A stretch of DNA of 32,850 nucleotides from Atopobiaceae bacterium (GTDB lineage: Bacteria; Actinomycetota; Coriobacteriia; Coriobacteriales; Atopobiaceae), in assembly GCA_017459605.1 (NCBI GenBank), contig JAFUCQ010000029.1, positions 1-32,850 of the forward strand, in the 5' to 3' direction. Position numbers and translations under genes: made by a program. Below are positions 4,437-24,810 of this stretch, one piece after another. The notes beneath the pieces are model-generated. The model made no database searches and was not told the origin of the DNA. It saw only the letters and a list, made by a program, of their open reading frames with translations. Position 1 is the first letter of the stretch. Each line of letters starts with the position of its first letter.

Positions 4437-5781
4437 GAGTTTGTCTCAAAAACGACACCACAAACGGGGCTGTTGTCACAAACGCTATCACATCAGCAAT
4501 AGCCTGCGCAGACTGAATACCCAACAGTCCCAAAAAGCGCGGTGCGATGAGCAGTGCCGGAATATAAAACAGTCCGTTTCTCATCATCGCCATAACCGAG
4601 GCCTCACGAGGCTTTCCTACACTCTGCAAAACCATGCTCATCACAATGGTGATAGGCGCCAGAGCAAGTCCCACACACTGGATGCGCATGGCAACAATGC
4701 CAATGCGGGCAACCTCGGGGTCATCTCTAAAAAAGCTCACGATAGGTCCTGCCCACACAAAACAGGCGATTGCTCCAATGAGCACAATAGCCTCGCCCAA
4801 ACGCCACGTAAACATAACGCTCTGCTGCACGCGCCGGAACTTCTCGGCACCGTAGTTGTACGCGGCGACCGGTTGCAATCCCTGTCCAATACCAATCATC
4901 ACGGCGGCAATCACCATTGATACGCGCCCCACGATAGTCATGGCAGCAATGGCGGCATCTCCATAAGGACCAGCCGACAAATTGAGCACCATCACTGCAA
5001 GGCTGTTGAGCGACTGGCGCACAAGGCTGGGAATGCCGTTTCTAATTACGTCGACAATAGTCGAGAAACGACGCGAGACCGCTTTGAGCGAAAGCCTGCT
5101 CACCGTGCGTCCCGACAAAAACATGACAAGCAAAATGACAAAGCTCGTGTACTCGGCGATGGCGGTAGACAACCCGGCGCCTCGGATACCCATACCAAGG
5201 GTGAACATCAAAATCGGGTCGAGCACCATGTTGATAACCCCGCCCGAAACCAAGCCCACCATGGCAAGAGCTGCCTTGCCTTCGTAGCGCATCACGTTGT
5301 TGAGCACGCAGCTCGCAGCCAGCGCAGGGCCACTTATCAGCATGTAAAAGCCATAGATGCGCGAGTAGGGAAGGATGGTCTCGGTTGAGCCAAGAATCCG
5401 CATAAAGGGGTCGAGAAACACAATGCCCGCCGCACTGATGAGCGCGGTAGTACCAATTGCCCACACAAAGCTGGTCGAGACGTAGCGATGCGCTGCTTCT
5501 CGGTCTCCCTTGCCAAGATGTCGAGAAATGAGAGATCCAGCTCCGTGTCCGTACATAAAACCAATCGCTTGAAAGACCCCTTGGATGCTCACCATAATGC
5601 CAATGGCGGCACTTGCGCTGGTTCCAATTTGACCCACAAAAAAGGCGTCCACCAAGTTGTAAATCATGGCGGTTAGCATTGAGATAACGGTGGGTATCGC
5701 CAATCGCGAAATAAGGGGACCAACTGGCGTGAGTACGAGTTTTTCGTATTGGGCGATCTCTTTTGCATCCATGGACATCAT
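4378..5781 (-). CDS. MATE family efflux transporter
   Basis: A 467-residue inner-membrane exporter of the multidrug and toxic compound extrusion family, which couples Na+ or H+ entry to drug or metabolite export. About twelve hydrophobic helices are visible in two halves. The first half starts LTPVGPLISRLAIPTVISML and contains NLVDAFFVGQIG, the characteristic helix 1-2 region. The second half starts near FSTIVDVIRNGIPSLVRQS and contains GIGQGLQPVAAYNYGA. Length is normal for the MepA/DinF-like branch. The start could be either of two adjacent ATGs (MM); no strong ribosome site is seen. The gene is divergent from ilvB with 170 bp between them. Substrate cannot be predicted. Confidence 0.93.
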   Translation of the reverse strand: MMSMDAKEIAQYEKLVLTPVGPLISRLAIPTVISMLTAMIYNLVDAFFVGQIGTSASAAIGIMVSIQGVFQAIGFMYGHGAGSLISRHLGKGDREAAHRYVSTSFVWAIGTTALISAAGIVFLDPFMRILGSTETILPYSRIYGFYMLISGPALAASCVLNNVMRYEGKAALAMVGLVSGGVINMVLDPILMFTLGMGIRGAGLSTAIAEYTSFVILLVMFLSGRTVSRLSLKAVSRRFSTIVDVIRNGIPSLVRQSLNSLAVMVLNLSAGPYGDAAIAAMTIVGRVSMVIAAVMIGIGQGLQPVAAYNYGAEKFRRVQQSVMFTWRLGEAIVLIGAIACFVWAGPIVSFFRDDPEVARIGIVAMRIQCVGLALAPITIVMSMVLQSVGKPREASVMAMMRNGLFYIPALLIAPRFLGLLGIQSAQAIADVIAFVTTAPFVVSFLRQTPNENRHAPIDDEYTRAKAA

Positions 5782-19724: not shown

Positions 19725-19803
19725 AACAACTCCTCACATGAATGGACCAACGAGAAACGACAATAAAACGATAATAAAACGCTCGTTTAATATAGATGTT
19801 TGA

Positions 19804-19837
19804 ACTCAAGTTTGTCTCGTGACTTGAGTGGGATAAT
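19804..19837 (+). promoter_or_regulatory. Operator-like palindrome and -10 box of the ABC exporter operon
   Basis: ACTCAAG (19804-19810) and CTTGAGT (19823-19829) form a perfect 7+7 bp inverted repeat with 12 bases between. Two bases later comes GATAAT (19832-19837), a good -10 box 41 bases before the ATPase start. The palindrome covers the -35 and spacer region, where the -35 itself is poor. This is the layout of a repressor or activator site, for example a TetR, MarR or PadR-type dimer. No regulator gene is adjacent. Confidence 0.5.
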
Positions 19838-19877
19838 ACAAACAGTACGATTTGGGTGGTACAACTGCGGGGGCGGT

Positions 19878-20579
19878 ATGTCGTTTGTTGAGTTTCATGA
19901 TGTTTGCAAGCTCTACCAGATGGGCGAGGTAGAGGTTCGCGCTGTTGATGGCATGAACTTTTCTATCGAGCAGGGAGAGTTTTGTGTCATTGTTGGTCCG
20001 TCGGGTGCAGGAAAAACGACCGTGCTCAACATGCTTGGCGGGATGGACACGGTGAGTTCGGGCGACATCCTGCTCGAAGGTAAGGCAATCTCTGCTAACA
20101 ACGAGCGAGACATGACAATGTATCGCCGCCATGACGTGGGTTTTGTGTTTCAGTTCTACAACCTCGTGCAAAATCTCACCGCTCTTGAGAATGTTGAGCT
20201 GGCAAGCCAGATTTGCGATGATCCGCTCGACCCTGCAGAGGTCTTGGGGCAGGTAGGACTGTCACACCGGCTCGACAATTTCCCTGCTCAGCTCTCTGGT
20301 GGAGAGCAACAGCGCGTGGCAATTGCGCGAGCGCTTGCCAAAAATCCCAAGCTGTTGCTCTGCGATGAGCCAACGGGTGCTCTTGACTATGAGACGGGCA
20401 AGCAGATTTTGCAGCTCTTGCAGCAAACCTGCCGCGAGACGGGTAAAACCGTTGTTCTCATTACGCACAATACTGCTTTTGAGCAGATAGCAGATCGCAT
20501 TATTCGCATTCGTGGTGGTCGCGCCGATTCTGTTGAGACAAACGAACATCCTCAGGATGCCTCTGTTCTTGAGTGGTAA
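19878..20579 (+). CDS. ABC transporter ATP-binding protein (MacB/LolD-type)
   Basis: A 233-residue ATPase that would drive the permease encoded next. Walker [10 protein letters not shown] (40-48), Q-loop in [19 protein letters not shown], signature LSGGEQQR (139-146), Walker B LLLCDEP (159-165) and H-loop His197 are all intact. The FYNLV segment is typical of the MacB/LolD/FtsE-like class that works with FtsX-type permeases in export or membrane extraction. ATG 19878 is chosen because the protein then starts [13 protein letters not shown] as in relatives; the upstream frame to 19800 crosses the promoter. Three bases separate its stop from the permease ATG. Confidence 0.95.
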
Positions 20580-20582
20580 GAC

Positions 20583-23500
20583 ATGCAGGATAAGGCAGGC
20601 AAAAAAACATCGTCTCGGTCGAGTTTCTTCAAGGAACTTGGTCGCTCAATCAGCTCGTCATGGGGTCGTTTCTTGGCAATCATGGGAATTGCAGCTCTTG
20701 GCTGCGGCTTTTATGCGGGACTCCAGATGACGGGTATGGACATGCGCCTGAGTGCGGATTCGCTGTATGACCAAACGCAGCTCTATGATATCCGCCTGTT
20801 ATCAACACTTGGACTTTCTGACGAGCAGGTCGATGAGCTTCGACACCGCGACGGCATAGAAGCGGCGATGGGCACGTACAGTATCGACGTGATGGCCAAT
20901 CTCAACGACGAACAATATGCCATGCGCATCGAGTCGTTAAGCCCAGAGCTCAAAGACCAAAGTGACGGGTTTGAGTTGGTTCGAGCATCTGCCTTGGATT
21001 TGCATAACGGCGAGTACGCACAGGGCGAGCAGACAGAAGCCGCAGCTACAAACGATGGTATCCAAACCCAAACTGCTGCAACGAAGCAAGCTCAGGCACT
21101 GAACTATCTCGTCCTGACACAGGGACGTTTCCCTCAAACGCCCAACGAGTGCGTGATGTCGGGAGACCGCATTATGGGCCATCCCATACAACTGGGCGAC
21201 AAGGTACAAGTTCTTTCTGGTGTTGGCGACATCGATGAACAGCTCCAAGAGCGAGACTTCGAGGTGGTTGGTCTCGTGTCTTCTTCGGTCTATGTTTCGA
21301 GCACCAACCTTGGTCCTACCTCCATTGGCAGCGGCAAAATCGAGCAGTTCATGTATGTTGTGCCAGAAAGCTTCGATGAGGACTTTCCCATCAGCCAAGT
21401 TTATATGAGCGTGAAAGGAGCTCGAGCAGAGCTTGCCGAGTCAGATTCCTACGACGATGTGGTAGCACGCGTTGTCCAAGAGCTTGAAGCCGACAGCTCT
21501 CGTATCGCCGACGACCGCCTTGCCAAACTTAAAGAAGAGGCGCAAGACACCCTCGAAGAAAAACGTCAGGAATTCGACACCGAGCGCGATGACGCCTATA
21601 AAAAATTGGATGAAGCCAAACAAGAACTCACCGACGCCGAGAAAGAACTTGCGGATGCCGAGCAAGAGCTTGCAGACGGACAACAAAGCTACGATGATGG
21701 CGTGCGTGAGTTTGAGGACGGAAAAGCTGAGTTTGACGAGCAACGCGGCGTCTGGGAGCAAACGCGCTCAGGACTCACTTCTCAGCGGCAAGCCCTTGTC
21801 GCTCAGCAAACAGAGCTCGAGCAGACACGCTCACAGCTCATAGCAGCGCAGTCTCAGCTTCAGGCGCAGCAAGCGCAAGCCGCTCAGAGCCAAGCGGCAC
21901 TGGCCCAAGCTTCTCAGCTGGCAACCCAAGCACAGCAGCTTGCAGCTCAGCTTGCCCAAGTTGAGGCAGGTCTTCAGCAGGTGGCAGCAGGTATTGCCCA
22001 GATTGATGCTGGTATCTCAGAAGGGGATACGCAGATTGTCCAAGCGCAAGTGAAGATTGCCGAATCACAAGAGCAGCTCGAGAGTGCGCGCTTAGAACTT
22101 GAGCAAGGCAAGCGTGACTATGAGAAGGGTCTCAAAGAGTACAACGAAGGTCTCGAGACCTATGAAAAAGAGCGTGTTGAGGCTGAGGAAAAGATTGCCG
22201 ATGCCCAGAAAAAACTTGACGATGCTCAAACCGATATCGATGAGCTCGAAGCCCCCGAGATATACGTACTCGACCGTACGAGAAACCCCGGAGCTGAGAG
22301 CTATCAGCAAGACTCAGAACGTATCGACAACATTGCCCAAGTTTTTCCTCTTATCTTTTTCTTAGTTGCCGCTCTTGTTGCGCTCACCACTATGACACGT
22401 ATGGTTGAAGATGAGCGCCAAGAGATAGGCACCTACAAGGCGCTCGGTTACGGAACAGCTCGTATTACCGCTAAGTACCTTGCCTACGCAGCACTTGCGG
22501 GAGGTATTGGCGCGTTCATCGGCATTGCTATTCTGTCTCAAATCCTGCCGTACATCATTAGCGTTGCTTACGACATCATGTATAGCGTGCCAATCATGGC
22601 ATTCCCGCTTCCTATCAACATTCCTATTGCGCTGACGGCGGCAGCCTTAGGCGTTGGCGTGATGCTTGTCGCCACATGGGCAGCAGCGGCTTCAACGCTT
22701 CGAGAAAGTCCTGCTCAGCTCATGTTGCCTCGAGCTCCTAAGGCAGGAAAGCGCATCTTACTCGAGCACATTGGGCCTCTCTGGAGGCGTACCTCGTTTT
22801 CGTGGAAGGTGAGCCTGCGCAACCTCTTTCGCTACAAGCGCCGCCTTGCGATGACCATTATCGGCATTGCAGGATGCACAGCACTGCTGCTCACTGGTCT
22901 TGGCTTGCACGACTCAATCTGGGACATCATCGATAAGCAATTTGGTGAGATTGTCCACTATGATGCGGTGATTAGCCTCGATGATGACGCAGATGAAGAT
23001 GTGCATCTGCGGGTTGAAGAGATGATTGCCGAGGCGAGCGAGTCCGATGCAATGATTCGAACTATGATGCTCAACAGGCAGCTGGGTTCTGATTCGCATG
23101 CTCCTATATCGAGTCAGGTGGTGGTGCCTCAGAGCAACGACGACATGAAGAGTCTGATACATCTGCGGCAACGTCACGGAGCCATTCCCATTGAGCTGGA
23201 TGCGTCGGGTGTGGTGCTGAGCGAGAAACTCAGCAGTTTGCTTGGCGTGTCTGCGGGCGATTCGGTGCGGATTTACGAACAAGACGACATTGGCAATGCT
23301 GTTGGGAGCGGCAAAGAAGTACGCGTGGCTGCAGTGTGCGAGAACTATGTCTACAACTACTGCTATATCGATCAGGATCTGTATCGCGAGTTGTATGCAG
23401 GTGAGCCCATCTTTAGCACCATTCTTGCCAAAATTGATACAGGCGAGGAGGTTCGCTCGCAGCTTGCCCAAAAGCTACACGATGTCGATGAGATTGATAC

Positions 23501-23954
23501 CGTCTCGTATAACGATGAGGTCATCGATTCGTATCGCAAGTCCCTGCGAAGCGTCAACATGATTGTGGTTGTGTTGGTGGTAGCCGCAGCTGCTCTTGCA
23601 TTTATCGTTTTGTATAACCTGACCAATATCAACATTGTGGAGCGTACACGAGAGATTGCCAGTCTCAAGGTGCTTGGCTTTACTCCTCATGAAGTCAACG
23701 CTTACGTCAACCGAGAGACACTCCTGCTCACGGGTATTGGTGCTGCCTTTGGCTTGATTCTGGGCACTATTATGGAGGAGTTCGTAGTCATTTCGAGTGA
23801 GGTAGACCTCGTGATGTTTGGTCGAGAGATTCATCCCCCCAGCTTTATCATTGCCTTTGTGGTGACCTTGGGATTTTCGCTCGTGGTGATGCTTTTCATG
23901 CGGCGTAAATTGTCATCTATCGACATGGTCGAAAGCCTCAAATCAGTAGACTAA
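20583..23954 (+). CDS. FtsX-like ABC permease with long coiled-coil extracellular domain
   Basis: A 1123-residue permease with two FtsX/MacB domains. One N-terminal helix (about 22-42) is followed by a large external domain (about 45-570). Within it, residues 315-558 form a heptad-rich coiled coil that is Glu/Lys-rich at both ends and Gln/Ala-rich in the middle (for example AQQAQAAQSQAALAQASQ). The first FtsX core (about 580-715) starts VFPLIFFLVAALVALTTMTRM. A second membrane segment begins near 753, and the C-terminal FtsX core (about 990-1115) has MIVVVLVVAAAALAF and EIASLKVLGFTPHEV. This layout is common in Gram-positive exporters of peptides, lipids or cell-wall signals. It forms one complex with the ATPase just upstream. 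Substrate unknown. Confidence 0.93.
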   Translation: MQDKAGKKTSSRSSFFKELGRSISSSWGRFLAIMGIAALGCGFYAGLQMTGMDMRLSADSLYDQTQLYDIRLLSTLGLSDEQVDELRHRDGIEAAMGTYSIDVMANLNDEQYAMRIESLSPELKDQSDGFELVRASALDLHNGEYAQGEQTEAAATNDGIQTQTAATKQAQALNYLVLTQGRFPQTPNECVMSGDRIMGHPIQLGDKVQVLSGVGDIDEQLQERDFEVVGLVSSSVYVSSTNLGPTSIGSGKIEQFMYVVPESFDEDFPISQVYMSVKGARAELAESDSYDDVVARVVQELEADSSRIADDRLAKLKEEAQDTLEEKRQEFDTERDDAYKKLDEAKQELTDAEKELADAEQELADGQQSYDDGVREFEDGKAEFDEQRGVWEQTRSGLTSQRQALVAQQTELEQTRSQLIAAQSQLQAQQAQAAQSQAALAQASQLATQAQQLAAQLAQVEAGLQQVAAGIAQIDAGISEGDTQIVQAQVKIAESQEQLESARLELEQGKRDYEKGLKEYNEGLETYEKERVEAEEKIADAQKKLDDAQTDIDELEAPEIYVLDRTRNPGAESYQQDSERIDNIAQVFPLIFFLVAALVALTTMTRMVEDERQEIGTYKALGYGTARITAKYLAYAALAGGIGAFIGIAILSQILPYIISVAYDIMYSVPIMAFPLPINIPIALTAAALGVGVMLVATWAAAASTLRESPAQLMLPRAPKAGKRILLEHIGPLWRRTSFSWKVSLRNLFRYKRRLAMTIIGIAGCTALLLTGLGLHDSIWDIIDKQFGEIVHYDAVISLDDDADEDVHLRVEEMIAEASESDAMIRTMMLNRQLGSDSHAPISSQVVVPQSNDDMKSLIHLRQRHGAIPIELDASGVVLSEKLSSLLGVSAGDSVRIYEQDDIGNAVGSGKEVRVAAVCENYVYNYCYIDQDLYRELYAGEPIFSTILAKIDTGEEVRSQLAQKLHDVDEIDTVSYNDEVIDSYRKSLRSVNMIVVVLVVAAAALAFIVLYNLTNINIVERTREIASLKVLGFTPHEVNAYVNRETLLLTGIGAAFGLILGTIMEEFVVISSEVDLVMFGREIHPPSFIIAFVVTLGFSLVVMLFMRRKLSSIDMVESLKSVD

Positions 23955-24086
23955 TATATATTGATATTATACGCCGTTGTATGGACTGATCGCCATGGCA
24001 GGCGAAGACTAATATCGGCACGTCGGGCAACTGAAAAAGAGAGGAGACTCTACAATGCCAAAGCGAATCACAAGCGAAGAGTTTGA
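23955..24086 (+). pseudogene. BrnT-like toxin remnant (C-terminal end only)
   Basis: Directly after the TAA of the permease, in the same frame, 43 codons read YILILYAVVWTDRHGRRR, then LISARRATEKERRLYN, and end at TGA 24084-24086. RxISARRATxxERRLY is the characteristic C-terminal end of BrnT RNase toxins. The frame runs into the start of the BrnA-like gene, a usual BrnT-BrnA arrangement. The N-terminal part of the toxin, including start codon and most of the fold, is missing. The permease stop codon marks the left edge, so the toxin was cut by a deletion or insertion. No translation start is seen. Confidence 0.7.
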
Positions 24087-24306
24087 CGCTCGGTTCGATG
24101 TGGGTGAGGATATGGATGAGTATCTGGATTATGATGCGATTACTGTGGATGATCCGAGTCCTCGCGATGTTCTGCTCTCTCTTCCTGAATGGGCTATCGC
24201 AACCGCAGAAGCGGAGGCGAAGCGTCGCAATGTTACGCGTCGAGCAATTCTTAATACGTGGATAACCGATAAAGCGGATGAAGTGCGCATGCATATAATC
24301 GCCTAG
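24055..24306 (+). CDS. BrnA-like (CopG/ribbon-helix-helix) antitoxin, now without its toxin
   Basis: An 83-residue protein starting MPKRITSEEFDARFDVGEDMDEYLD, the acidic N-terminal region that would wrap the toxin in BrnA-type antitoxins. It ends with a ribbon-helix-helix segment (about 40-75: DVLLSLPEWAIATAEAEAKRR, then NVTRRAILNTWI) that binds operator DNA. GAGAGGAG lies eight bases before the ATG. The first 32 bases overlap the toxin remnant. The gene is intact, so it may survive as a repressor or as an anti-toxin to incoming BrnT. Confidence 0.8.
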   Translation: MPKRITSEEFDARFDVGEDMDEYLDYDAITVDDPSPRDVLLSLPEWAIATAEAEAKRRNVTRRAILNTWITDKADEVRMHIIA

Positions 24307-24495
24307 TGTGGCCGTTCATAAGCAGCACAACGAGTTGAGTTTTGTAGCGTAGCTACGTCTTTGTTCGTGATATTGCCGTTTGATGATTCGTACTTGTCGT
24401 ATGACCGCGTTCAGCGGTACCCTCAAAAAGATACGAGCAAATGCTCGAAACACTGGTAGCGTTCGTAAGGGCGCACAACGAACAAGGGAGTAACA

Positions 24496-24810
24496 ATGGC
24501 ATTTAATCCTGATGAGCTTTTGAAGAAGGCTGGAGAGTTGGCAGATCAGGCAGCGGCGGCTGCGGGCGACTTGGCTGATAAGGCTAAGCCCGTAATGGAC
24601 GACCTTGGCGAGAAGGCAAAGCCTTTTGCAGATGCAGCGCTTGACAAGGCATATGACGTGGCAAGCCAAGCAAAGAACGCCCTTGAGGATGTTACTGGCA
24701 TCGACCTCGACCAAGACGGTCAGGTTGGCGCAAGCGCTGCAGATGACGCTCCTGCTGCAGAAGTTGCCGAGGCCGCTGTTGATGAGGCTGCCGACGCTGC
24801 TGCTGAGTAA
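24496..24810 (+). CDS. Small Ala-rich acidic helical protein
   Basis: A 104-residue soluble protein starting MAFNPDELLKKAGELADQ. Residues about 6-68 form long amphipathic helices with an 11-residue-like rhythm of AG.LADQA, AGDLADKAKP and GEKAKPFADAALDKA. The tail (about 75-104) is almost only Ala, Glu, Asp and Val. The style resembles LEA-like, phasin-like or YtxH/CsbD-type stress proteins, but I do not recognise the family. AAGGGAG lies five to six bases before the ATG. In the 189 bp upstream, small hairpins GTAGC-GTA-GCTAC and CGAGCA-AA-TGCTCG are present. A strong terminator follows, so it is probably transcribed alone and well. Confidence 0.8.
   Translation: MAFNPDELLKKAGELADQAAAAAGDLADKAKPVMDDLGEKAKPFADAALDKAYDVASQAKNALEDVTGIDLDQDGQVGASAADDAPAAEVAEAAVDEAADAAAE

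Follow-up and report, generated by a model that had tools for sequence, protein, structure and literature searches.

The window, the 32.85-kb stretch of DNA analysed here, carries an ABC exporter gene pair followed by the end of a brnT toxin gene and a complete brnA antitoxin gene (Table 1). Past the permease stop, 43 codons stay open in the permease frame (23955-24083; translation YILILYAVVWTDRHGRRRLISARRATEKERRLYNAKANHKRRV). As the original prediction had it, they contain the C-terminus of BrnT: in a profile search, residues 5-29 of the remnant align with positions 53-77 of the 77 positions of PF04365 (BrnT, DUF497) at 28 bits (E 2.7e-6), a score that lies below the cut-off of 34.5, as expected for a fragment. 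The remnant is not a complete BrnT toxin domain, as it matches the last third of BrnT alone, and the N-terminal part of the toxin is gone, also as predicted. A profile built from the survey loci described below matches the remnant at positions 55-85 of 87 with 34.7 bits.

Table 1. Features of the exporter-brnTA locus in window coordinates
Feature	Position	Strand	Remarks
ABC ATPase gene	19800..20579	+	First of the exporter pair; from the ORF list; start is TTG as listed, an internal ATG is likelier
FtsX-type ABC permease	20583..23954	+	Intact; native stop 23952-23954; PF02687, E 1.9e-30
Junction, permease stop to brnT remnant	23955..23966	+	Without detectable brnT homology
brnT remnant, C-terminal third	23967..24086	+	Stop 24084-24086; matches PF04365 and our own profile
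GGAG, probable ribosome-binding site of brnA	24043..24046	+	Inside the brnT remnant, 8 nt 5' of the ATG
brnA, orphan BrnA-family antitoxin, 83 aa	24055..24306	+	Intact; NF047399 match; identity to L150, L151 and L152
Terminator-like stem 3' of brnA	24343..24357	+	Weak: 3 in the region against 1.0 expected by chance

The breakpoint had been placed at the permease stop codon. The frame of the remnant does start there, but detectable brnT homology begins 12-13 nt later, at 23967 by the profile match and at 23968 by the nucleotide match with the related locus L150. The remnant lacks a start codon that is served by a ribosome-binding site. The proposed fusion to the end of the ABC operon has to be given up: the permease is terminated by its native stop codon, and its C-terminus DMVESLKSVD with the following stop recurs, with small changes, in 19 relative loci (L004-L022).

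The 83-aa ORF belongs to the BrnA antitoxin family NF047399 (62.2 bits against a curated cut-off of 60), with its residues 5-73 on positions 1-69 of the 70-position model. As expected of the family, its gene overlaps brnT, here by 32 nt including the stop codon of the remnant, which equals the brnT/brnA overlap in a more distant genome, G004. Both profile searches, for BrnT and for BrnA, thus gave matches, and the predicted intact antitoxin and its overlap with the remnant were borne out. A Pfam search with the ORF gave no match. The fold expected of the family is ribbon-helix-helix; in an AlphaFold model of the antitoxin monomer (4 sequences; pLDDT 68), there are C-terminal helices at 45-58 and 62-82 and no strand, and the model is too weak for use as a structure-search query; the antitoxin found no match among solved structures. 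The same kind of search with the complete toxin of locus L151 found one BrnT-like toxin chain, 7vd7. The BrnA of the window is a putative BrnT-binding protein and repressor of its own promoter. Because the toxin is truncated, the locus is not a functional type II brnTA module, in which one operon would encode both proteins whole; brnA is intact without an intact partner adjoining it, that is, an orphan (solitary) antitoxin. Further downstream (24496-24810) lies a 104-aa acidic, alanine-rich ORF with no family match over cut-off.

Rest of the genome and related loci

The genome of the window, an assembly of 144 contigs that totals 2.27 Mb and is 89% complete, encodes a single further BrnT. This toxin is complete, lies on contig C143 and has an antitoxin of its own, which is of another type. 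No second toxin paired with an antitoxin of the window's type was found in this 89% complete genome. Searches of viral contigs, PADLOC and Rfam found nothing, and a phage search gave one distant match.

A scan of GTDB genomes yielded three close relatives of the antitoxin, at loci L150 (87% identity), L151 (82%) and L152 (82%). L151 (CACXMZ010000004.1, MAG RUG11413) has a full 90-aa BrnT whose gene lies upstream of its brnA and overlaps it, as in the window, and it differs from the window in the completeness of the toxin and in its chromosomal site. The original prediction looked for a related strain with a full brnT at this site; a complete toxin exists in L151, though at another site, and the refuting case of no full toxin in any lineage does not apply. 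In L152, the flanks match those of L151 (86-91% identity in most pieces) and the antitoxins differ by one residue, but brnT has lost about 103 bp of its middle part. In L150, what is left of brnT begins near profile position 40, beside an intact antitoxin. The left flank of L150 matches L151 at 4651-4718, which means that about 1.14 kb is gone, including the 5' half of brnT. The four known members of this subfamily thus have one intact toxin and three different toxin lesions, and the antitoxin is open in all four.

The gene adjoining the L151 module is one that we take to be RhuM-like. Beside the broken brnT of L152, it lacks about 440 bp from its middle (L152:3945-4424 compared with L151:4764-5699), and two adjoining modules have thereby lost their core.

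In the more distant G004, whose antitoxin is about 50% identical, a complete pair lies upstream of the exporter ATPase gene, at a distance of less than 1 kb. This site differs from that of the window; the ATPase-permease pair is also present in G004 (L053). The antitoxin identity of 82% across the window's family f1 and family f2 indicates that the module moves between families.

One-sided loss among brnTA loci of the class

Searching 396 class-level genomes with NF047399 gave 112 places over cut-off, of which 110 were evaluable; G422 (at a contig edge, not fetched) and L046 (cut at an edge) were dropped. Scored with profiles built from the survey loci, BrnT is intact at 79 of the 110 antitoxin loci and not intact at 31. 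The broken loci comprise 11 with the C-terminal end only (window included), 7 without a match, 7 frameshifts, 3 internal deletions, 2 toxins without their N-terminus and 1 nonsense mutation. The class without a match includes L069 and L106, where a trace of brnT is readable by eye, and L115, counted as a frameshift, has a stop in its antitoxin too, so that 1 of the 31 is doubly broken.

For the reverse count, PF04365 was searched in the same 396 genomes, and the frames downstream of full-length BrnT genes without an over-cut-off NF047399 neighbour were judged by eye. A full-length toxin stands beside a broken antitoxin of the NF047399 type in 2 of 81 cases (L189 and L193); L199, where neither gene is complete, and L198, whose toxin is missing the first 14 positions, were left out. 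Most full-length BrnT genes without an NF047399 neighbour have intact antitoxins of other types; at L186, the downstream ORF is unfamiliar. The difference between 31 of 110 loci with a broken toxin and 2 of 81 with a broken antitoxin is significant (Fisher P 1.1e-6), also once the rows without a match or without the N-terminus are dropped (P 9.5e-5). A second BrnTA type decays likewise, with the C-terminal end only at L207, L208 and L210 and internal loss at L211 and L212.

The antitoxin tree was built from 113 sequences, namely the 110 of the survey and those of L150, L152 and G004. On this tree, which has few columns and many unresolved forks, the 33 broken rows need 26 changes. Shuffling the labels 500 times gave counts as low in 76 cases, so the broken rows do not cluster; the starred branches require 12 changes or more. 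The scatter of broken loci over the tree indicates that the losses are recent and repeated. The antitoxin of L043 is the same as those of L040 and L041, where the toxins are intact, and a broken locus that lacks pieces of brnT aligns with an intact sister at the same site in L044/L100, L032/L030, L122/L124, L099/L090 and L093/L075. L132 and L133 have identical antitoxins and toxins that are broken differently.

Probable decay of the module and possible roles of the orphan antitoxin

We are highly confident that the window locus is what decay has left of a brnTA module which was acquired horizontally, lost its toxin first and left its antitoxin orphaned. A deletion, which we infer to have occurred in the window's lineage, would have removed the first two thirds of brnT together with the operator or promoter region, as far as the native permease stop. 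It would have spared the last codons of the toxin with the ribosome-binding site that they contain, and the whole antitoxin gene. No promoter-like or terminator-like site was found between the permease stop and brnA, so brnA transcripts would most likely come from the exporter operon. brnT-like DNA is absent from the ~700 nt 3' of the permease stop at all 19 loci L004-L022, and an already truncated piece may instead have been inserted. As the cause of the one-sided decay, we infer an asymmetry of cost: loss of the antitoxin first would be harmful and loss of the toxin first free, so that toxin-negative, antitoxin-positive loci would pile up and later decay. The locus is a clear snapshot of the death of a TA pair, toxin first and antitoxin last.

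The chromosomal ccdO157 of Escherichia coli, of another toxin family, is reportedly a TA module under decay as well (Mine et al., in 2009). Loss or disruption of the toxin in brnTA loci is already known (PMC7280312), and what is seen here is the ordinary decay of a selfish gene pair and no new device. In the available portion of that Pseudomonas putida-based survey, 23% of the homologous brnTA loci are without an intact toxin ORF (a row of its Table 1 gives 43 and 10), and the direction of decay is the same as in the window. Those homologues are from another phylum, and the portion contains no remnant anatomy, reverse count or tree. The one-sided loss count, the antitoxin tree and the common anatomy of the remnants are new here. 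Decay of TA modules via deletion and nonsense mutation is described in the accessible part of PMC7167474. Orphan antitoxins are abundant, and anti-addiction has been proposed for them, in Klebsiella pneumoniae (PMC7192599) and E. coli (PMC10790755); in the parts of these papers at hand, they resemble the window's in being antitoxins that lack a toxin and frequently still sit at the original site, whereas they come from broad surveys by CDS criteria with no BrnTA count. Literature searches found no paper with BrnTA decay in Coriobacteria in its title.

The remnants themselves give an indication of timing. Comparison of the window with L150 over the 29 remnant codons outside the brnA overlap shows 19 changes, 14 synonymous and 5 nonsynonymous, and so many synonymous ones are not expected under neutral change (P 1.2e-5). 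This suggests that the toxin was under selection for most of the divergence of the two, and hence that their truncations are recent and were probably separate events. A shared ancestral truncation was rejected as the most economical view because the remnant codons are constrained at the protein level and the remnants start at different points; a longer ancestral remnant may instead have eroded further in the window.

With some small probability, the orphan BrnA serves anti-addiction, neutralising the BrnT of incoming plasmids or islands so that the host survives their loss. The movement of the module between families speaks for this, as do related antitoxins that adjoin plasmid BrnT genes, at less than 60% identity only. 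The antitoxin is also conserved alike in broken and intact lineages, with a pN/pS of 0.123 in pooled broken-intact pairs and 0.098 in intact-intact pairs pooled at pS under 0.6 (P 0.35). This constraint without measurable relaxation is compatible with recent loss and with continued use alike, and recent loss may alone account for it. As to purifying selection after the loss, L027 and L028, the sole pair with one common loss, differ by 5 synonymous and 7 nonsynonymous changes (P 0.10); between L152 and L151 the ratio is 7 to 1, a comparison that spans time before the loss too. Against anti-addiction, the orphans are scattered as tree tips and seldom group into clades, which suggests short persistence, and the only other BrnT of the genome is served by an antitoxin of a different type. 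The counts of 31 of 110 and 2 of 81, together with the same-site sisters, are material for testing whether orphan antitoxins are leftovers or immunity to incoming toxins.

It is rather improbable that brnTA modules of the class have repeatedly been turned into a standard cassette and then held for a time by selection as immunity to incoming brnTA. Such a cassette would consist of the last 18-32 toxin codons with their ribosome-binding site and the intact antitoxin, sometimes with its own operator.

It is very unlikely that selection maintains the C-terminal remnant for its own sake, whether as a peptide or as a leader for coupled translation of brnA. The codons shared by the window and L150 are conserved, and in all 11 C-terminal-only remnants the first retained position lies at 53-69 of the 87-position profile and in none at 12-52; this clustering has a P of 4.7e-6 with 10 counted as independent and endpoints taken as uniform, although the rows depend on one another to some extent and a uniform null is a crude one. 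However, recent loss accounts for the codon conservation, L150, from outside the survey sample, retains more (from near position 40), and L063 and L119 retain none.

We also give little credence to the proposal that the orphan antitoxin now regulates the upstream exporter or another gene. In its favour, BrnA controls its own operon, brnTA, in Brucella, according to the accessible text of PMC11980606, which also describes BrnT as a ribonuclease, and brnA follows the exporter without a terminator-like site between the permease stop and its start. The palindrome GGTATA-N5-TATACC recurs upstream of brnT among L062-L149 (e.g. L068, L074 and L104) and is likely a BrnA operator. Scores of 10 or more out of 12 occur upstream of 31 of the 77 intact modules tested (of 79; two in L087 were left out) and at 7 of 18 deletion-type broken loci, or 8 of 21 when the three internal deletions are added. 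Two loci in this count, L063 and L092, have identical antitoxins and are from one genome. The broken loci with the site thus kept an operator-like site of their own. In contrast, the window junction reaches a best score of 8 of 12, which is background level, and retained autoregulation in the window was rejected on this score. Within 2 mismatches, neither this palindrome nor that of the L151 promoter has a copy in the window, which counts weakly against the original prediction of a regulator of the exporter, although the operator of this subfamily may differ. An assembly artefact joining unrelated contig ends is most unlikely: the assembly is a draft of 144 contigs and the relatives searched include no same-genus genome for comparison, but the independently assembled L150 and L152 and ten further class-level loci are truncated in the same manner, and the lost 5' part of this brnT is not found elsewhere in the assembly.

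Other arrangements were seen among the decayed loci. At L212 (317-565), of the second BrnTA type, the first ~30 toxin residues are in frame with the antitoxin, a fusion by internal deletion. At L128 (~1150-1690, on the antitoxin strand), the brnT remnant begins a few bases past the stop of another gene, presumably a toxin gene of the RelE/ParE type by its looks, and the orphan BrnA now stands behind it.
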